Shown here in pieces: positions 35,924 to 46,744 of a DNA stretch of 56,930 nucleotides. Source of the DNA: Candidatus Gastranaerophilales bacterium (GTDB lineage: Bacteria > Cyanobacteriota > Vampirovibrionia > Gastranaerophilales > Gastranaerophilaceae); contig CALUQL010000004.1 of the NCBI GenBank assembly GCA_944322895.1, positions 1 through 56,930 of the forward strand. The letters are read 5' to 3'. Both the position numbers and the translations under genes were made by a program. Each line of letters begins with the position of its first letter. Position 1 is the stretch's first letter. The notes below the pieces were generated by a model, which was not told the origin of the DNA, made no database searches, and worked only from the letters and a program-made list of their open reading frames with translations.

Positions 35924-35942
35924 TTTGTATAGGAGAAAAGAG

Positions 35943-36401
35943 ATGAAATACTTAATAAAAAAGCCTGATACTTTTTTAAACACATTGAATGAAGATATTA
36001 ATGCAATTCTTCAAAAAAGTTTTGACAATTTATTTCCGGAATACATTTTTCATCAAGAATTAAAAGGAATGGCAATGCCTGTTGATGTAAAAGAGTATGA
36101 TGATAAATATTGCGTAAAAGTAGAATTACCTGGGATAGATAAAAAAGACATTAATGTTGATATAAATAAATCATATATAAAAATTGAAGCAAAAAAAGAA
36201 ACCGAAAAAGAAGAAGAACAAAAACACAAATACCATAAAACAGAATTCCGATATGGCACATATTCAAGAACACTATATTTTCCATATGAAATAGATGTAG
36301 AGAAATCCTCAGCAGAGCTAAAAAAAGGGATTTTAGAACTTTATTTGCCTAAATTACACGCTGATAATAAAGAAACAAAAAAACTTGAGATAAAAGATTA
36401 A
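35943..36401 (+). CDS. Small heat shock protein, Hsp20 family
   Basis: The ATG at 35943 follows AGGAGAAAAG; a longer TTG-started frame would run through that site. The 152-residue protein has the alpha-crystallin domain from about residue 42: PVDVKEYDDKY, VELPGIDKKDI, and the closing KGILELYLPK, close to the family A-x-x-x-n-G-v-L motif. It binds unfolding proteins without ATP and forms oligomers in the cytoplasm. It is followed 5 bases later by a small ACT-like gene and then a flavoprotein, so a stress or redox operon is likely. Confidence 0.93.
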   Translation: MKYLIKKPDTFLNTLNEDINAILQKSFDNLFPEYIFHQELKGMAMPVDVKEYDDKYCVKVELPGIDKKDINVDINKSYIKIEAKKETEKEEEQKHKYHKTEFRYGTYSRTLYFPYEIDVEKSSAELKKGILELYLPKLHADNKETKKLEIKD

Positions 36402-36406
36402 CTATA

Positions 36407-36646
36407 ATGACAGTTATAATCGGAATCAAACTTCCAGATAAATTGGATAATGCAGTTGAATTACAAAAAATACTAACAAAATTCAACTGCATTATAAAAA
36501 TGCGTATAGGAATAAATAATTCATCAATATTTTGTTCTTCAAAAGGAATAATACTATTACAAGTAGAAAGTACAGAAGACTCCATTGATTTAGAACGAGC
36601 TTTGCTCGAAATCAGCGGAATAGAAACCCAAAGAATGATTTTTTGA
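36407..36646 (+). CDS. ACT-like small protein, TM1266-type
   Basis: The 79-residue protein has the beta-alpha-beta-beta-alpha-beta pattern of an ACT domain: an opening strand VIIGIKL, a helix with ELQKILTKF, KMRIGI, a strand GIILLQVES, a helix DSIDLERALLEI, and a closing strand. This resembles the TM1266-type proteins named iron-only hydrogenase system regulator. No hydrogenase gene is in the window. It lies between hsp20 and a CoA-disulfide-reductase-like gene with short gaps. The ligand is unknown. Confidence 0.5.
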   Translation: MTVIIGIKLPDKLDNAVELQKILTKFNCIIKMRIGINNSSIFCSSKGIILLQVESTEDSIDLERALLEISGIETQRMIF

Positions 36647-36658
36647 GAAGGAATAAAA

Positions 36659-38023
36659 ATGAGTGAAAAAGTTGTAATAATAGGTGGCGGGGCCGCAGGA
36701 CCCAAAACAGCTGCAAAACTTAGACGAGAACGCTCAGATATGCAAATAGACTTATACACACAAGAAGAAATTATTTCATATTCTGCATGCGGTCTTCCAT
36801 ATTTTATAGAAGACATAATAAAATCTCCGGATACATTAATTATGCGAACTCCTGAAGATTTTAGAAAACAAAATATAAATATTCATACTAATCAAAAATG
36901 TATAAAAGTAGATACAAGGGGGAAAAAAGTTCTAATCGAAGACTTAAGAACATCAGAGGTATATGAAGTATTCTACGATATTCTTGTCATTGCAACAGGC
37001 GCAATTCCAGAAATTCCTAACATTAAAAATGTTGATTTAAAGAACATTTTCACATTAAGAACAATTCAAGATGGAATAAACATTAAAGAAAAAATGTTTA
37101 AATCCAAGAAAGCCGTATTAATTGGCGGAGGCTACATTTCAATAGAAGTAATGGAAGCTTTTGTTAAAAATAATATTCAAGTTACATTAATTGAAAGAAA
37201 TCCACATATATTAAAAATGTTTGATGATGACTTTGCTAAGCTAATTACAGACTACATAATAGGTAGAAATCCAGGTCAAGTTAATATACTAACAAATGAA
37301 GAAGTAGTAATGTTTCAAGGTAATGAGAAGGGCGAAGTAACTAAAGTTATAACCGCATCAGGGAAACAAATTGAAACAGATCTTGTTGTTCTGGGTACAG
37401 GGGTTCGTCCAAATACAGACTTTCTTATAGGAAGTGATATCAATCTAAGCGTAAAAAACAGTATAAAAGTAGGAAATACAATGCGAACTTCAAAGCTCAA
37501 TGTATACGCTGTTGGAGACTGTACAGATAATTTTAATTTAATAACAAACCGATACACCTGGGTACCTATGGGTTCAACAGCAAATAAAGAAGGGAGATGT
37601 GCTGCAATTAATATAGCCGGTGGAAATTGTTTATTTGAAGGTATTTTAAATTCAACAATTACTAAATATTTTGATTTTACAATTTCGATAATCGGAATAA
37701 GTTACCAAGAAGCTTTAAAACTTGGATTTCAACCCGAATATGCTATAGTTACCAAAAGAGATAAAGCTGGATACATGCCAAATCATGGAATATTAACCTT
37801 AAAATTAATTGCAGATAGAAATACTCATACAATACTCGGTATACAAGGTATTGGAGAAGGTGAAGTTAATCAAAGAATAAATACTGTAATTCCGGCAATT
37901 CTAAGTAAAACGAAATTAGAATCTTTTATGAACTTAGATTTGCCATATTCTCCACCATATTCACCGGCTATAGATCCGGTATTGAATGCAGCACAAATTG
38001 TTTACCATAAAATTAATTGTTAA
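36659..38023 (+). CDS. FAD pyridine nucleotide-disulfide oxidoreductase, CoA-disulfide reductase/NADH oxidase type
   Basis: The 454 residues show VVIIGGGAAG (FAD), a single redox Cys in SYSACGLPYFI (about residue 43), IATGAIPEIP, a second Rossmann VLIGGGYIS for NAD(P)H, VYAVGDCTD for FAD, and a C-terminal dimer domain. The lone Cys in SxxCGLPY is the hallmark of CoA-disulfide reductases, water-forming NADH oxidases and related persulfide reductases. Its role is probably oxygen or disulfide detoxification in an anaerobe. It is the last gene in the hsp20 run, with GAGAAGGA as ribosome binding site. Confidence 0.88.
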   Translation: MSEKVVIIGGGAAGPKTAAKLRRERSDMQIDLYTQEEIISYSACGLPYFIEDIIKSPDTLIMRTPEDFRKQNINIHTNQKCIKVDTRGKKVLIEDLRTSEVYEVFYDILVIATGAIPEIPNIKNVDLKNIFTLRTIQDGINIKEKMFKSKKAVLIGGGYISIEVMEAFVKNNIQVTLIERNPHILKMFDDDFAKLITDYIIGRNPGQVNILTNEEVVMFQGNEKGEVTKVITASGKQIETDLVVLGTGVRPNTDFLIGSDINLSVKNSIKVGNTMRTSKLNVYAVGDCTDNFNLITNRYTWVPMGSTANKEGRCAAINIAGGNCLFEGILNSTITKYFDFTISIIGISYQEALKLGFQPEYAIVTKRDKAGYMPNHGILTLKLIADRNTHTILGIQGIGEGEVNQRINTVIPAILSKTKLESFMNLDLPYSPPYSPAIDPVLNAAQIVYHKINC

Positions 38024-40154: not shown

Positions 40155-41396
40155 ATGAAAAGACGAGCATTCATAATAAATTCTGCATTAACGCTAGGTG
40201 GAACTATACTATTATCAGGATGTGGAAAAAATGAAATAAAAAAATCCAAAGATCAAGTAGTAAGAAGAAAGTTTGCTAACACAGATACTCCATTAATAGC
40301 ACTAGGCTGTATGAGACTTCCTATGCTCAATGGAAAGATAGATATGGCTGAACTTGATAAAATGGTAGAGTATGCTATGTCTCATGGTGCAAATTACTTT
40401 GATACAGCATATATGTATGTTGATGGAAAGTCAGAGAATGCAATTGGTGAAGTATTAAAAAAATATCCCAGAGAAAGTTTTATATTAGCAGATAAATGCC
40501 CTGCATATCTCGTCAAAACTCAAACAGATACAAGAAGACTATGTGAAGAACAGCTCAAAAAATGTCAAGTTAAATATTTTGACAATTATATGGTTCACAA
40601 TATTAATAAAAACACTATAAACAATTATCGTGATAATAAAATGTACGATGAACTTGTCAAACTAAAAAAAGATGGTTTGGTAAAACATATAGGTTTTTCT
40701 TTCCATGGCGACCCTCAAATGCTAAGGGAAGTTATAAATGAACACAAATGGGATTTTTGCCAATTACAAATCAACTATCTTGATTGGGAAGTTGTTAATG
40801 CAGATGAATTATACGATATAGCAGATAAAGCAGGTGTTCCTATCATAGTTATGGAGCCTTTAAGAGGCGGAGTTCTATGCAATCTTCCAACGAAAGCTGC
40901 TGAGAAATTAAAACAAGAATGTCCTAATGATACACAAGCTTCATTTGGTTTAAGATGGGTCGCAAATAAGAAAAGAGTATTCACAATCTTAAGCGGAATG
41001 AGCAATTTACAACAACTTAAAGAAAATGTTAATACATTTGTGAATTACAAAGCAATAACAGAAAAAGAAGAACGAGTAGCATATGAAATTGCACAGATTA
41101 TACAATCAGGGGGAGCAATAAGTTGCACGGCGTGCAAATACTGTTTAGAAGTTTGTCCTAGAGGAATAAATATACCGGCAATATTTGGTTTATACAATAT
41201 GTATAAAGGAAGTAAAGCTCCAAACGCAAAATTTATGTTTGTATATAATTATAATGCCCTTGAAGAATCAACAAGGGCAGACAAGTGTATAAAATGCGGT
41301 TTGTGCAATAAAAACTGCCCGCAAAGCCTTGATATTCCCAAACTTTTAGAAAAAGTAGACAAAACAGTAAAAGAAGTTGAAAAGAGTATGAACTAA
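40155..41396 (+). CDS. Tat-signal lipoprotein: aldo/keto reductase fused to ferredoxin domains
   Basis: The 413-residue protein opens MKRRAFIINSALTLGG, a twin-arginine signal, and ends the signal at LLSGCG, a lipobox, so it should be exported folded and lipid-anchored. Residues about 40-300 form an aldo/keto reductase barrel with the tetrad visible in NYFDTAYMY, LADKC and MVHNI. The C terminus has two 4Fe-4S motifs, CTACKYCLEVCP and CIKCGLCNKNCP. It probably reduces a carbonyl outside the inner membrane with electrons from the polyferredoxin encoded next (1-base overlap). The substrate is unknown. It heads an operon containing tatA and tatC. Confidence 0.82.
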   Translation: MKRRAFIINSALTLGGTILLSGCGKNEIKKSKDQVVRRKFANTDTPLIALGCMRLPMLNGKIDMAELDKMVEYAMSHGANYFDTAYMYVDGKSENAIGEVLKKYPRESFILADKCPAYLVKTQTDTRRLCEEQLKKCQVKYFDNYMVHNINKNTINNYRDNKMYDELVKLKKDGLVKHIGFSFHGDPQMLREVINEHKWDFCQLQINYLDWEVVNADELYDIADKAGVPIIVMEPLRGGVLCNLPTKAAEKLKQECPNDTQASFGLRWVANKKRVFTILSGMSNLQQLKENVNTFVNYKAITEKEERVAYEIAQIIQSGGAISCTACKYCLEVCPRGINIPAIFGLYNMYKGSKAPNAKFMFVYNYNALEESTRADKCIKCGLCNKNCPQSLDIPKLLEKVDKTVKEVEKSMN

Positions 41397-42673
41397 TGAA
41401 AAATGTATATAAAACAAGATTAATAATAGGTATTATTGTTTTATTACTGGCTATTTTAGGCATATATGGAGTTTTTTATTCTGCAAAAATATTTGATATC
41501 CAGATTTTACCATTATTGCAAAGATGCATTATTGATTTTTCAATTCTTGCATTATCATTACTTACAGGAATTATAATATTAACTGTTTTATTCGGACGTA
41601 TATACTGCTCTCTACTCTGCCCATTGGGAATTATTCAAGAACTGGCAGGTATGTTCTTTTTTAGAGGAAAAAGAAAAAATAAATATACAAAAAATTATCC
41701 AATAAAATATTTTATATTAGCGATTTCATTAGGCATTTTATTGGGGGGAAGTGCATTATTTATAAGATACATAGAACCATATACTTATTTTAGTTCAGCT
41801 TTTACTTTTTCAATGGTAGGCCTCATTGCATTATTAGCAATAATCTTTCTTACATTTTTCAAAAACAGTTTTTTTTGTACAAATATTTGTCCGGCAGGAA
41901 CTATACTCGGACTTATATCAAATTTTTCAAGAAATAAAATCTATATAGAGAAACATAATTGTGTTTCCTGTAGCAACTGCGAGAGCAAATGCCCAGCTGG
42001 CTGTATCGATTCAAAAAATAAAACAGTTAATAATGAAACCTGTATAAAATGTTTAAAATGTATTGAAATATGTCCCAAAGGTGGTATCAAATACGTAAAA
42101 GAACCAAAAGAACAAATAAATTTTAGTATACAAAGACGAAAAATAATAATAAGTACAGCGCTCATAGCCGTTTTTGGAACAATGATTAAAACAGGAATAA
42201 TAATAAAAGATAAAATTGCAGAAAAATACAGAGACATAATTTTACCCCCAGGAGCAGAAAGCGAAGAAAGATTAATAAATACATGTTATAATTGCAATCT
42301 TTGTGTTGAAAATTGCCCTGCCCAAATTATAGTAAAAGCAAATAATGATTTCCCTACAATTCACATTGATTATAAAAACGGAAGTTGTGATAAAAACTGT
42401 AATAAGTGTTCACAAGTATGTCCGACCGGTGCTATAAAAAGGCTCAGTATAGAAGAAAAACAAAAAACAAGAATAGCAATGGCAATGATAAAAAAAGAAA
42501 GTTGTACTGAATGTGGATTATGTCAAACATCATGCCCATATGGGGCAATAATTATAACCAAAGAAGGAACAAACATTAATGCAGAAAAATGTATAGGCTG
42601 CGGAGCTTGTAAAAAAGCATGTAACACTGATGCAATAGAAATTTATGCCGTAAAAAAACAAAATATAATATAG
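41396..42673 (+). CDS. Membrane polyferredoxin (NapH-like) with internal twin-arginine segment
   Basis: The 425-residue protein has four N-terminal transmembrane helices with NapH-style CxxxCP pairs (C71/C75 and C161/C165), then two 4Fe-4S motifs (CVSCSNCESKCP, CIKCLKCIEICP). Next comes IQRRKIIISTALI (R247/R248) leading into a fifth helix. Beyond it are four more cysteine motifs of 4Fe-4S type (CYNCNLCVENCP, CDKNCNKCSQVCP, CTECGLCQTSCP, CIGCGACKKAC). The layout reads as a NapH-like part fused to a NapG/NrfC-like part whose folded Fe-S domain would cross by Tat. It likely passes electrons from the cytoplasmic side to the exported reductase. Confidence 0.82.
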   Translation: MKNVYKTRLIIGIIVLLLAILGIYGVFYSAKIFDIQILPLLQRCIIDFSILALSLLTGIIILTVLFGRIYCSLLCPLGIIQELAGMFFFRGKRKNKYTKNYPIKYFILAISLGILLGGSALFIRYIEPYTYFSSAFTFSMVGLIALLAIIFLTFFKNSFFCTNICPAGTILGLISNFSRNKIYIEKHNCVSCSNCESKCPAGCIDSKNKTVNNETCIKCLKCIEICPKGGIKYVKEPKEQINFSIQRRKIIISTALIAVFGTMIKTGIIIKDKIAEKYRDIILPPGAESEERLINTCYNCNLCVENCPAQIIVKANNDFPTIHIDYKNGSCDKNCNKCSQVCPTGAIKRLSIEEKQKTRIAMAMIKKESCTECGLCQTSCPYGAIIITKEGTNINAEKCIGCGACKKACNTDAIEIYAVKKQNII

Positions 42674-42692
42674 TAGAAAGGAGAATAATAAA

Positions 42693-42908
42693 ATGTCACT
42701 GGGAATAACAGAAATAATATTAATTTTAGTTGTTATAATTTTACTTTTCGGAGGAAAGAGGATTCCGGAAATAGCTAGAGCACTTGGCAGGGCGTCATAT
42801 GAATATAAAAAAGCAAAAGACGTTATAAAAAAAGAAACAGAAGAACTTAAAAATGAAATAGAAGACGCACAAGAAAAACCGGAAGAATATAAACCGCAAG
42901 ACGTATAA
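42693..42908 (+). CDS. tatA: Twin-arginine translocase subunit TatA
   Basis: The 71-residue protein has one short N-terminal transmembrane helix (ITEIILILVVIILLFGG), the FG-x-K-x-[IL]-P hinge (FGGKRIPE), an amphipathic helix and an acidic tail. This is the complete TatA/TatE pattern. TatA oligomers form the transport path for folded, cofactor-containing proteins. AAAGGAG precedes the ATG. It is immediately followed by tatC, and no tatB is present, so this is a minimal TatAC system next to its likely substrates. Confidence 0.95.
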   Translation: MSLGITEIILILVVIILLFGGKRIPEIARALGRASYEYKKAKDVIKKETEELKNEIEDAQEKPEEYKPQDV

Positions 42909-42909
42909 A

Positions 42910-43644
42910 ATGAGCGATATGGAAGATAAAGACGAAAATATAATTTCTCATATTGAAGCATTCAGAGAAATGTTGTTAAAAAGTTTTATTTGTTTGGGAA
43001 TATTTATAATTCCGATGCTTTTTATTGCGCCTAAATGCTTAGATTTACTGATACAATTACTAATTAAGGATAATAATATATCTCTTAATTATTTTTCGCC
43101 TGTAGAAGTATTCATAATACAAATAAAACTGGCATTTATTCTTGATATAATACTTTGTTTTCCATATATAGCAAGACAAATATGGAAATTTTTTGCTCCG
43201 GCACTTTATCAACACGAAAGAAAATTTATAAAATCAATAGTATTCATATCAACAACTTTATTTATATTCGGCGTATTTTTTTGTTTGTTCATTATTTTAC
43301 CGCTTATTATAGATTTTGGGATGAGTTTTACATCTCAGAAGATAAACGCAGTATTAGGAATTTCAAATATAATTAACTTATCGTTCTGGCTTACATTATC
43401 CTTCGGGTTAATGTTTCAAATGCCAATCATAACATATTCTCTAATAAAATCAGGATTTGTAGAATACAAAACATTTGAAAATATGAGACCTTATGTTGTT
43501 GTAATAATACTCATTATAGCAGGAATACTAACACCGCCTGATATTATAAGCCAAATATTACTATTTACACCTACATATATGCTATTTGAGGCAGGATTAT
43601 TATTTTCAAAATTAAGAATTAAGAAAGACCCCAATAATGGATAA
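42910..43644 (+). CDS. tatC: Twin-arginine translocase subunit TatC
   Basis: The 244-residue protein has six hydrophobic segments. The N terminus ISHIEAFREML corresponds to the signal-recognition stretch of TatC, and the family's FxPxE-like region reads FSPVEVFIIQIK. LTPPDIISQILL near the end is also typical. TatC binds the twin-arginine signal in the inner membrane. It starts 1 base after tatA and overlaps larB by 8 bases, binding the export genes and the nickel-cofactor genes into one transcript. Confidence 0.95.
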   Translation: MSDMEDKDENIISHIEAFREMLLKSFICLGIFIIPMLFIAPKCLDLLIQLLIKDNNISLNYFSPVEVFIIQIKLAFILDIILCFPYIARQIWKFFAPALYQHERKFIKSIVFISTTLFIFGVFFCLFIILPLIIDFGMSFTSQKINAVLGISNIINLSFWLTLSFGLMFQMPIITYSLIKSGFVEYKTFENMRPYVVVIILIIAGILTPPDIISQILLFTPTYMLFEAGLLFSKLRIKKDPNNG

Positions 43645-44317
43645 ATATATAGAACTTGATTTTGCAAAACTTGATACAGATAGAGTAAAAAGACGAGGTT
43701 ACTCAGAAGCTGTTTTTTGTGAATGTAAAAATGATGAGCAACTAATAAAAATATTCCAATCATTCAAAGATATTGGTTCCAATGTAATAGGAACACGTTG
43801 TTCCAAGAATCAATATGAAATACTAAAAAATAAATTTGGAGAAATTATCAAATACAATGAACAAGGAAGAGTTGTAACACTAATACAAAAAGAAATCGAA
43901 AGAATTGGAGAAATTGCCATTTGTACAGGAGGAACTGGTGATATACCCGTGGCAGAAGAAGCTGCAGAAACAGCTGAATTTTACGGAAGCAATGTAAAAA
44001 AATATTATGATATAGGTATTGCAGGCATACACAGACTTTTTGATAAAATTGATGAAATAAAAAAAGCAAATGCAATAATAGTAGCAGCCGGAATGGAAGG
44101 TGCATTAGGAGGAATCATTGCAGGACTTGTAGATATACCTGTTATAGCACTACCGACTTCTGTAGGTTATGGAAGCAGTTTTAAAGGACTTTCAGCACTT
44201 CTTACAATGTTAAACTCTTGTGCAGAAGGAATGAGTGTTGTAAATATTGATAATGGCTATAATGCGGGATATAGCGCCTGTCAAATAAACAGATTAATTG
44301 AAAGGAAAAATAAATGA
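43637..44317 (+). CDS. larB: LarB: pyridinium-3,5-biscarboxylate mononucleotide synthase
   Basis: The 226-residue protein has the PurE-like fold signatures of LarB: AICTGGTGDIPVAEEA, IVAAGMEGALGGIIAGL and ALPTSVGYGSSFKG. LarB carboxylates and hydrolyses nicotinic acid adenine dinucleotide in the first step of nickel-pincer nucleotide (NPN) synthesis, the cofactor of lactate racemase LarA. It overlaps tatC (8 bases) and larC (4 bases). The N-terminal part before the PurE-like core (about 1-85) is of normal length. Confidence 0.93.
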   Translation: MDKYIELDFAKLDTDRVKRRGYSEAVFCECKNDEQLIKIFQSFKDIGSNVIGTRCSKNQYEILKNKFGEIIKYNEQGRVVTLIQKEIERIGEIAICTGGTGDIPVAEEAAETAEFYGSNVKKYYDIGIAGIHRLFDKIDEIKKANAIIVAAGMEGALGGIIAGLVDIPVIALPTSVGYGSSFKGLSALLTMLNSCAEGMSVVNIDNGYNAGYSACQINRLIERKNK

Positions 44318-45057
44318 ATTTATATTTTGAATGTAATTCGGGTATTTCGGGTGATATGTCTGTTGGTGCATTATTAGACTTGATAGATAACGAAAATATT
44401 TTAGATAATGCTCTTTCATCAATGAAACTTGATAATGAATTCCAATACAAAATTACAAAGAAAATGGTAAATGCAATCTCAACTACAGATTTCGATGTTA
44501 TTTTACCTTTACACAATCATCACGAGCACCACCATGAACATCACCACGAGCACAGAAATCTGGATGATGTAAATAAAATTATTGACAAAGCAAATATTAA
44601 TCAAAATGCAAAAACTTTAGCTAAAAAAATCTTTAGAATAGTAGCAGAAGCCGAAAGTAAAGTTCATAATAAAGATCTTTCAGAAGTTCATTTTCATGAA
44701 GTTGGTGCAATTGATTCAATTGTGGATATTGTAAGTTTTGCAGTTTTATATGATTATCTGAACCCGAATAAAACATATTTTTCAACACTAACAGAAGGAC
44801 AAGGAACCATTACATGCCAGCACGGCGCACTATCAGTACCGGTTCCGGCAGTTTGTGAAATAGTTTCAAAGTATAAAATTCCAATTAAAATAACAAATAA
44901 TGAAGGAGAAATGATAACCCCAACAGGTGCGGCAATTGTTGCAGCATTATATACAGGTGAACAACTCCCTGCGAAAATCATTATAGAAAAAGTAGGATAT
45001 GGAAGAGGTAAAAGACCCTATAAAAATCCTATTTTAAGAGTTATGGAAATAAACTAA
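44314..45057 (+). CDS. larC: LarC N-terminal half (nickel-pincer nickel insertase, LarC1-like)
   Basis: The 247-residue protein starts NLYFECNSGISGDM, the LarC hallmark. It has a His-rich insert (H67-H80, HNHHEHHHEHHHEH type) suited to nickel storage, then VHFHEVGAIDSIVD and ITPTGAAIVAAL. LarC installs nickel in the NPN cofactor in a CTP-dependent reaction. Full LarC is about 400 residues, or LarC1 plus LarC2 joined by frameshift. Here the frame stops after VMEIN, and the transporter gene begins 10 bases later with its own ribosome binding site, so the LarC2 half is missing from this locus. Confidence 0.88.
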   Translation: MNLYFECNSGISGDMSVGALLDLIDNENILDNALSSMKLDNEFQYKITKKMVNAISTTDFDVILPLHNHHEHHHEHHHEHRNLDDVNKIIDKANINQNAKTLAKKIFRIVAEAESKVHNKDLSEVHFHEVGAIDSIVDIVSFAVLYDYLNPNKTYFSTLTEGQGTITCQHGALSVPVPAVCEIVSKYKIPIKITNNEGEMITPTGAAIVAALYTGEQLPAKIIIEKVGYGRGKRPYKNPILRVMEIN

Positions 45058-45067
45058 AGGAGATATT

Positions 45068-45970
45068 ATGCATTTAGGAAATGGAATAATTTGCCCGGCA
45101 ACAGGAATTCCTATGATAATGTTAGCAGGAATAACAGCTTATTATGCTTTTAAAAAAGCTAAAACTGATTTTAACAAAGAGAAAATCTTATATACAATAA
45201 CTTTAACTATTTTAGTATTTACTCTGCAAATGATAAATTTTTCAATACCGCACACAGGTTCAAGCGGGCACATAATAGGAGCAATGTTACTTGCCGTATT
45301 AATTGGTCCTTATGCGGGATTTCTTGCAATGTGTAGTATTCTACTTGTTCAAGGAATATTCTTTGCAGACGGAAGCCTTTTAGCACTTGGCTGTAACATA
45401 ATAAATATGGGTGCTTTTGCTAGTTTCGCAGCATATCCTTTAATTTATAAACCATTTTCAAAAAACAATAAAGAATTTATAGGAGCAATACTATCTTCGA
45501 TTTTGGCATTACAACTAGGAGCATTGGCTGTCGTAATAGAAGGATTATTATCAGGAACAATAGCATTAAATTCAATAGCAAACTTCACAGGTTTAATGCA
45601 AATAATCCATCTTCCTATTGGTATAATAGAAGGTATTATAACAGGAATAGTAATTCTTGCAGTAAAGAAAACCAATTACAAAAAAGCATCTATTTCCTTT
45701 AGTTTGTTATCTTTATTATTTGCTTCTTTTATATTTAAATTTGCTTCTACAAAACCTGATGGACTTGAATGGTCATTATTAAAAATAGAAGATTCAATTA
45801 TTCCACAAATTCAAAGTCAAATATTCATAATATCTGAAACATTACAAAATAAAACAGCAATTTTGACCAATATAGAACCTGTATATTCAAATTTATCAGG
45901 CATCTTAATACTTGGTTTTATAATGTATTTACTATGTTTCTTTATGAATAAACAAAAAGCTGAAAATTAA
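45068..45970 (+). CDS. CbiM-type nickel/cobalt ECF transporter component with PDGLE domain
   Basis: The 300-residue membrane protein starts Met-His (MHLGNGIICP), the metal-binding N terminus of CbiM/NikM/LarM. It has GSSGHIIGAMLLAVLIGP and FADGSLLALGCN, typical of CbiM. A C-terminal part carries KPDGLEW, the PDGLE motif of CbiN/NikN-like subunits, then one more helix, so M and N functions are fused. In this operon the metal is most likely nickel for LarC. The ECF ATPase and the T subunit are not encoded in the window. AAAGGAG precedes the ATG. Confidence 0.9.
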   Translation: MHLGNGIICPATGIPMIMLAGITAYYAFKKAKTDFNKEKILYTITLTILVFTLQMINFSIPHTGSSGHIIGAMLLAVLIGPYAGFLAMCSILLVQGIFFADGSLLALGCNIINMGAFASFAAYPLIYKPFSKNNKEFIGAILSSILALQLGALAVVIEGLLSGTIALNSIANFTGLMQIIHLPIGIIEGIITGIVILAVKKTNYKKASISFSLLSLLFASFIFKFASTKPDGLEWSLLKIEDSIIPQIQSQIFIISETLQNKTAILTNIEPVYSNLSGILILGFIMYLLCFFMNKQKAEN

Positions 45971-46744
45971 ATGAAAGAAAAATTTGATAAATTAAAACAA
46001 TATTTAAGAGAACTGGATAAGCAAGGCCTATGTCTTGCTTTTTCAGGCGGAATAGACAGCTGTGCACTTTTATATTTATGTAAAGATTTAAATGTTATAG
46101 CCGTTACATTTAAATCAATTTTTCAAACAGAACAAGAAATTAATGAAGCAAAAGAATTTTGCAATTTTTATGGAATAAAACAAAAAATAATAGAATATTA
46201 TCCGCTTGAAAATAACCTAATAAAAAATAACCCAAAAGATAGATGCTACCATTGTAAAAAACTTATTTTTTCAGAGTTAAAAAAATATGCGGGAAATAAA
46301 ATTATAATAGACGGAACTAATGCAGATGATATAAAAACATATAGACCAGGACTTAAAGCATTGAAAGAATTAGAAATTTATTCCCCATTTGCTGATTTTG
46401 GAATTACAAAAAAAGAAATCATAGATTTTTCAAAAGAAGAAAGTATAAAGAACTATGCGAAACCGTCTTCACCTTGTATGGCAACACGGTTTCCATATAA
46501 CACTTTATTGAATGAAGAACTAATAGAAAAAGCAAAAAAAGGTGAAGAAATAATAAAAAATTTCGGTTTTTCAAACTGCAGATTTAGAATCCACGATAAT
46601 ATAGCCAGAATTGAAATTAATCAAGAAGAAATTGAAAAATTCATAAGATATAGAAAAGATTTTTTGAATAAATTAAAAGCTCTGGATATAAAATATATAA
46701 CCTTAGATTTAGAATGTCTACGCAGCGGAAGTATGGATATATAA
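45971..46744 (+). CDS. larE: LarE: ATP-dependent sulfur-transfer enzyme for NPN synthesis
   Basis: The 257-residue protein is a PP-loop ATPase (SGGIDS, residues 25-30) with DRCYHCKK (C92/C95) and SSPCMATRFPY. C169 in the last motif matches the position of the sacrificial cysteine of Lactobacillus plantarum LarE. It thiolates the pyridinium dicarboxylate before nickel insertion. It begins directly after the transporter stop and ends the operon that started with the Tat-signal aldo/keto reductase. No larA (lactate racemase) is seen in the window. Confidence 0.93.
   Translation: MKEKFDKLKQYLRELDKQGLCLAFSGGIDSCALLYLCKDLNVIAVTFKSIFQTEQEINEAKEFCNFYGIKQKIIEYYPLENNLIKNNPKDRCYHCKKLIFSELKKYAGNKIIIDGTNADDIKTYRPGLKALKELEIYSPFADFGITKKEIIDFSKEESIKNYAKPSSPCMATRFPYNTLLNEELIEKAKKGEEIIKNFGFSNCRFRIHDNIARIEINQEEIEKFIRYRKDFLNKLKALDIKYITLDLECLRSGSMDI

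Follow-up and report, generated by a model that had tools for sequence, protein, structure and literature searches.

A conserved gene block joins a predicted Tat-exported aldo/keto reductase to nickel-pincer cofactor genes in Gastranaerophilales

Gene content of the locus

The window analyzed here is a stretch of 56,930 nucleotides from a Candidatus Gastranaerophilales bacterium, one of the gut Melainabacteria, which are relatives of cyanobacteria (GenBank assembly GCA_944322895.1, contig CALUQL010000004.1, positions 1 to 56,930); it represents contig 4 of a 2.15 Mb genome that is 93% complete in 159 contigs. Between positions 40155 and 46744, it carries eight plus-strand genes that lead from a putatively exported aldo/keto reductase (AKR), through a membrane polyferredoxin and two genes of twin-arginine translocation (Tat), to genes of the LarBCE pathway for the nickel-pincer nucleotide (NPN). 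An earlier note on this DNA had read these genes as one operon and had named them as AKR, polyferredoxin, tatA, tatC, larB, partial larC, cbiM-like gene, and larE. The eight open reading frames (ORFs) were confirmed, adjacent ones overlapping by 1, 8, or 4 bases or standing 0–19 bases apart, and the naming is backed by Pfam and NCBIfam profiles:

40155..41396, plus strand: predicted Tat-exported lipoprotein AKR with a C-terminal 2x[4Fe-4S] part (PF00248, 143 bits; 4Fe-4S dicluster match at the C-terminus)
41396..42673, plus strand: membrane polyferredoxin, NapH-NapG-like (Fer4_5 and ferredoxin repeats in Pfam/NCBIfam; hydropathy and Cys motifs)
42693..42908, plus strand: tatA (PF02416; TIGR01411 above cut-off)
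42910..43644, plus strand: tatC (PF00902; TIGR00945 above cut-off)
43637..44317, plus strand: larB, pyridinium carboxylase/hydrolase (NF033503, 277 bits against a cut-off of 175; alignment to 7mj0)
44314..45057, plus strand: larC, N-terminal part (LarC1) with a His-rich loop (PF01969, about positions 1–233 of 375)
45068..45970, plus strand: CbiM/NikM-type metal-uptake S component with a PDGLE domain (PF01891, PF13190)
45971..46744, plus strand: larE, sulfur transferase with a CXXC-C motif at C92, C95, and C169 (TIGR00268, 251 bits against a cut-off of 150)

Conservation and co-inheritance of the block

The block is a conserved gene unit. Genomes and loci are referred to below by our working numbers (G and L, respectively), and an AKR is called lar-type when it is more than 55% identical to the window AKR, a label set by identity and not checked for linkage in every entry. 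The samples (98 genomes of the order, 244 of the phylum, 287 of the family, and a set of 23) overlap and are not independent; G106 and G335 are the same contig, as are G118 and G340.

Near full-length AKRs at about 60% identity or more were recovered from 24 of the 98 order genomes, with frame breaks near the N-terminus in G021 and G047, and larB lies above its cut-off in all 24. The only other larB carriers among the 98 are G002, G004, G009, and G011, which belong to two other families and are without a lar-type AKR. All 24 clusters hold AKR, polyferredoxin, tatA, tatC, larB, and larC1; cbiM is present in 22. The fetched stretch includes larE in 23 clusters; in three of these (L067, L084, and L085), the larE copy is divergent and lies on the opposite strand. 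The block genes recur together across three families of the order, which argues that their association is more than chance. In some clusters, tatC and larB are separated by an insertion of about 1–6 kb; the inserted genes, seen in some lineages and not in the window, include a CheR-like protein and one with no match in Pfam.

A protein family with the N-terminal motif ETSSSxGMFARDTGGCL, recognized by eye, and a length of about 350 aa was seen at 19 of 99 loci (a count that includes duplicate genomes), often between tatC and larB, as at L118:4783-5853 and L119:13277-14332; one member has no Pfam match.

The family sample gives a similar picture, with a near full-length lar-type AKR in 76 of 287 genomes and larB above cut-off in 71 of those 76. 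Three of the larB-free genomes, G340, G373, and G382 (loci L176, L138, and L137), have decayed clusters; in the other two, a contig of 3.5 kb (G288) or 3.8 kb (G335) stops within tatC. AKR and larB lie at most 6 kb apart in 58 of the 71. They share a contig at greater distance in G387 (45 kb) and G389 (18 kb), and lie on different contigs in 11 genomes, for some of which contig breaks may be the explanation. In an overlapping set of 23 genomes with larB missing near the AKR, 17 have larB elsewhere; of the six with no larB anywhere, three have decayed clusters, one is cut off by a contig end, and two are of the lar-free kind described below. The earlier note's expectation of a conserved gene order is therefore borne out in most genomes, with the same order in most of the fetched clusters. 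The arrangement that it named as refuting, with the lar genes and the tat and reductase genes at unrelated loci, occurs in a minority (13 of 71), where both sets are still present.

Protein distances were compared across 41 loci whose ORFs cover at least 85% of AKR, polyferredoxin, TatC, LarB, and LarC1. Every gene pair shows a correlation (r 0.39–0.76, permutation p 0.001–0.002, with no unlinked-gene control), including AKR with larB (r 0.40) and polyferredoxin with larB (r 0.62). Decay, in the form of frameshifts and internal deletions, strikes both halves of the block. Non-core neighbors are common to 62 of 1128 locus pairs within 5 kb upstream and to 41 of 820 pairs within 4 kb downstream, counts that carry no background control.

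Among the best 79 loci listed in the scan of genome contigs, the nearest named AKR loci belong to Candidatus Gastranaerophilales and Candidatus Avigastranaerophilus (93–95% identity over the AKR), and all loci with an order name are Gastranaerophilales except one labelled Elusimicrobium (L165). Across the 244 phylum genomes, a single match beyond the main family was recovered at 1e-40, in G129; this AKR has no Tat signal and no lar neighbors within the 10 kb fetched. No relative was found among viral contigs.

The aldo/keto reductase

The window AKR has a twin arginine at residues 3–4 and a lipobox cysteine at residue 23. The arginines are present in 69 of 69 lar-type and 6 of 6 lar-free sequences, and the cysteine in 68 of 69 and 6 of 6. 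This pattern is that of a Tat lipoprotein, and the enzyme is predicted to be exported as one; its signal segment falls below the hydropathy threshold applied. Residues D83, Y88, K114, and H148, which we take to be the AKR catalytic tetrad, do not vary across the same 69 and six sequences, and neither do the eight cluster cysteines. The D-Y-K-H tetrad is characteristic of NAD(P)-dependent aldo/keto reductases, and NAD(P)H use by this enzyme is putative; an AF2 model (pLDDT 86) predicts an AKR fold for which the matching structures include NADP-bound AKRs. By hand mapping onto aldose reductase, Q287 presumably occupies the position of the phosphate-binding Arg.

Comparison of the 69 lar-type and six lar-free AKRs yielded 47 fixed differences, among which no pattern of residues indicated a change of cofactor. 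At these positions, the divergent lar-linked AKR of G266 agrees with the lar-type sequences at 19 and with the lar-free sequences at nine. In G266, a second, divergent AKR (38% identical) leads an AKR-polyferredoxin-tatAC-larB-larC1 cluster at L252:7650-13342, and the ordinary AKR is located elsewhere, adjoining cbiM.

Polyferredoxin, Tat export, and electron supply

Hydropathy peaks place five transmembrane (TM) segments in the polyferredoxin (9–27, 48–66, 105–123, 136–154, and 250–268), with two CX3CP motifs within the TM part. A twin arginine at residues 247–248 directly precedes TM5, with two cluster motifs ahead of it, on the presumed cytosolic side, and four behind. Both arginines are invariant in the 12 sequences aligned. 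A twin arginine before the fifth TM segment, four TM segments, and a putatively exported four-cluster part suggest a dual Sec–Tat polyferredoxin, built as a NapH–NapG fusion; the layout matches that described as needing both Sec and Tat in passages of Tooke et al., 2017 (PMC5449189).

The tatC of the block is the single TatC found in its own genome. TatC lies above cut-off in 32 of the 98 order genomes: 24 lar-type genomes, four lar-free genomes, the lar-free remnant G076, and G004, G006, and G011 of other families. Within the main family, the 26 of 76 genomes with TatC all contain the block or what is left of it. None of the remaining 50 has TatC above cut-off; AKR remnants persist in some of them, and G063 retains a fragment of TatC that scores too low to pass. 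Because TatC is found there only with the block or a remnant, Tat looks dedicated to the AKR module in this family. Apparent Tat lipoproteins resembling FMN reductases, at L130:75-713 and L066, are possible extra Tat substrates in some relatives.

At 22 of 76 loci (L103–L178), the AKR gene is preceded on its own strand by a flavodoxin gene no more than about 60 bases away. These flavodoxins mostly have an N-terminal hydrophobic segment, and the one that was scanned carries PF12682. No such gene was seen among the window ORFs.

The lar genes and metal uptake

The window LarB aligns along its length to the solved LarB 7mj0 and retains the Cys of the NSCA motif, to which we ascribe a catalytic role. 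The LarE cysteines C92, C95, and C169 form a CXXC-C motif as in the [4Fe-4S]-LarE described in passages of PMC9283937. Both proteins score above their curated cut-offs, and both look competent as judged from sequence. LarC is another matter: the NPN pathway is expected to include a full-length LarC with its LarC2 part, and the own genome has a single LarC match, covering positions 1 to 233–234 of 375, with no LarC2 or other LarC piece found. The truncation is general. LarC matches reach position 250 at most in each of 25 genomes, namely the 24 of lar-type and the remnant G042, and no second LarC piece was found in any of them. The four larB carriers of other families, which lack the block, have LarC to positions 369–375, that is, at full length. 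The missing LarC2 part presumably holds the CTP-binding site.

A PF03692-type (CxxCxxCC) metal-chelating protein was seen at L066:15020-15583, and a protein of similar appearance adjoins larE at L257:5969-6532.

The search for LarA or another client

The earlier note had suggested an NPN enzyme elsewhere or an unknown use of the cofactor, and had named an exported LarA-like protein as a finding that would give support. No such protein was found. LarA (PF09861) has no match in the own genome and none above cut-off in the 98 order genomes, and a search of the 287 family genomes returned five weak matches, one of them marginally above cut-off. On rescan, all five proved to be DUF362 proteins (one, for example, scores 177 bits with DUF362 and 22 with Lar_N). 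Since no LarA was found, an unknown cofactor use remains.

DUF362 and the LarA domain share Pfam clan CL0471, as given in passages of PMC11770544. DUF362 has no match in the own genome and is absent from 18 of the 24 lar-type genomes; it was rejected as a general client because it occurs in only six of the 24, and also in five genomes without larB. It is nonetheless a lead for the cofactor client in LarA-less genomes, including the four order genomes with full-length LarC, all of which carry larB and DUF362 and no LarA. Two details of DUF362 were seen in passing: the proteins at L061, L062, L263, L264, and L266 show weak, repeated Lar_N matches to the later part of the profile, and in G048 DUF362 genes flank the AKR–lar cluster on both sides (L073:2902-3759 and L073:12327-12899). 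More broadly, passages of PMC11796402 report larB, larC, and larE without larA in about 15% of surveyed genomes, with the client yet to be identified.

A lar-free sister block and broken clusters

An AKR (44–47% identical) is followed in the same order by polyferredoxin, tatA, and tatC in G041, G082, G086, and G096. The fetched stretches of these four contain no lar genes, and their genomes no larB; the AKR of G096 has an internal stop. Scores of 585–633 bits over the full length, applied by hand, place the AKRs of 21 of the 287 family genomes in this sister class, whose neighborhoods were inspected in those four genomes, in G241, and at L179 and L181. Fragments of the AKR occur in 18 of the 287, of which six have larB above cut-off. 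Partial larB below cut-off was found in G042, G326, and G386. A larB gene without an AKR match at 1e-50 was found in G251, where AKR remnants adjoin larB, and in G370.

Discussion

We tentatively propose, at a little less than an even chance, that this co-inherited gene unit encodes an extracytoplasmic redox enzyme in which the exported AKR would carry a pincer-type cofactor and be fed by the polyferredoxin; both the cofactor and its holder are what we infer from the genes, signals, distribution, truncated LarC, and lack of a detected LarA read from sequence. LarB and the [4Fe-4S] LarE would make a dithiolated pyridinium mononucleotide, which LarC1, with metal entering through the CbiM-type uptake protein, would metallate without LarC2 to give a pincer-type cofactor or some variant. 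The folded Fe-S AKR would receive this cofactor while still in the cytosol, and TatAC would both export the loaded enzyme as a lipoprotein and finish the Sec–Tat insertion of the polyferredoxin. The polyferredoxin could then bridge the membrane, taking electrons from a cytosolic ferredoxin to the clusters of the AKR, which would reduce a carbonyl compound outside the cytosol by using the pincer cofactor as a hydride carrier built into the enzyme. Cytosolic ferredoxin is the likely electron source because Melainabacteria, according to passages of PMC3787301, have neither respiratory chains nor quinone carriers nor Rnf; the same source indicates that one gut Melainabacteria genome may make vitamin K.

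A built-in carrier would be required because the AKR is exported and would meet no free NAD(P)H. This carrier could be tightly bound NADP or a pincer nucleotide, and the latter is favored since the lar genes and the lar-type AKR occur and decay together and no client of the LarA clan was detected in the genome. It is therefore conceivable that the exported Fe-S AKR, with its own Tat system and polyferredoxin supply, is the missing non-LarA client of larBCE, in which NPN or a variant replaces NAD(P)H; we regard this identification as a possible one that leans toward doubt.

Several observations weigh against the proposed role of the lar genes. The sister class has larB in 0 of 21 genomes, and its existence suggests that this type of AKR has no general need of the cofactor; it is the main fact against such a need, and also a natural control. 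The conserved N291, which we take to be the Asn position that binds the NADP adenine in other AKRs, may suit a dinucleotide better than a mononucleotide, and F183, N149, and D113, at the expected nicotinamide end, are not retained in the divergent lar-linked AKR of G266. G370 keeps tatA, tatC, larB, larC1, and larE with no AKR or polyferredoxin there, and seven more genomes have larB but only a broken or remnant AKR. AKR and larB are not side by side in the 13 of 71 genomes described above, though both are kept, and physical linkage alone could yield much of their co-occurrence. The LarC truncation adds a biochemical difficulty, in that the known CTP-dependent nickel insertion may fail without LarC2; this raises doubt whether the lar genes here yield a true NPN.

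The sister class, N291, the retained tetrad, and the NADP-bound AKRs among the closest folds to the model would fit a different reading, in which the exported AKR carries NAD(P) or is fed with electrons and can do without a pincer cofactor, and the lar genes serve another, cytosolic protein, the link being one of regulation or metabolism only. Such an enzyme would have a parallel in the glucose–fructose oxidoreductase (GFOR) of Zymomonas, which is Tat-exported with bound NADP. We consider this reading unlikely: no LarA-clan protein that could be the other client was found in the own genome (neither LarA nor DUF362), DUF362 is present in only a quarter (6 of 24) of the lar-type genomes, and in most genomes the lar-type AKR and larB are retained or missing as a pair, even where they lie apart. 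The truncation of LarC in all 25 genomes of the group, as against the full-length protein in the four related genomes without the block, would fit an altered pathway, whose end product (a non-nickel or other-metal cofactor, or an unmetallated dithio-pyridinium nucleotide) would be the carrier for the exported module. According to passages of PMC11796402, LarC uses CTP to cytidinylylate its substrate during nickel insertion. Metal handling nevertheless seems to be kept, since the window LarC1 retains its His-rich loop and a CbiM-type gene is present in 22 of 24 clusters, and we judge an altered end product to be rather improbable.

It is also conceivable that the two halves are adjoining operons frozen by chance or inheritance in one lineage, with no joint function. 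All block genomes examined belong to one order by name or kinship, with one locus (L165) bearing the label Elusimicrobium, and the background conservation of gene order was not controlled for. However, flanking genes are seldom common to two loci while the block itself holds together, decay affects both of its halves, and both are retained in the 13 genomes where they lie apart; an explanation by mere linkage seems very improbable.

Comparison with known systems and implications

The block resembles several known systems in part. Like the LarABCE system of L. plantarum and the LarE of Thermotoga, it has homologs of LarB, LarE (with the CXXC-C motif), and N-terminal LarC, but it lacks LarA and LarC2, and its lar genes stand beside a putatively exported redox module. 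Its reductase shares the AKR barrel and C-terminal 2x[4Fe-4S] part of the COG1453 group, the name under which we place Fe-S aldo/keto reductases of this build, but differs in its Tat lipoprotein signal, its own translocase, and its lar linkage; a cytosolic reductase of the COG1453 kind is found at L067:2401-3546. The polyferredoxin shares with NapGH and other dual Sec–Tat polyferredoxins (passages of PMC5449189) a NapH-like part of four TM segments and two clusters, the twin arginine before TM5, and a NapG-like four-cluster part, but its partner here is an AKR lipoprotein instead of nitrate reductase, and its hosts are described as having no respiratory chain or quinone carriers (passages of PMC3787301). 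Cofactor genes without LarA are shared with the LarA-less larBCE genomes of PMC11796402, which, in the passages concerned, include many cyanobacteria; the difference here is a linked candidate client and a truncated LarC. No description of such a system was found in the open-licence literature, as judged from titles, the starts of abstracts, and passages, and within that literature the block is an undescribed gene unit.

The block points to a possible cofactor user beyond LarA, the only enzyme family known to use the cofactor, and supplies a named candidate client tied to the larBCE pathway in many genomes. The lar-free sister offers a natural control for this role, and the truncated LarC bears on what LarC2 is for. 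If the proposal is correct, gut Melainabacteria, which have been thought to be pure fermenters, would gain an electron route to an extracytoplasmic acceptor.

Neighboring genes and signals

Scans for promoters (44 found, against 54 in shuffled sequence) and terminators (five found, against three in shuffles, the sole plus-strand one lying inside the AKR gene) were uninformative. A peroxiredoxin gene lies 103 bases upstream of the eight-gene block. Farther upstream, at 35925-38023 of the window, a CoA-disulfide-reductase-like flavoprotein gene sits beside a small ORF and an hsp20-like gene, and these neighbors are seen again in the nearest relatives, L103–L105.

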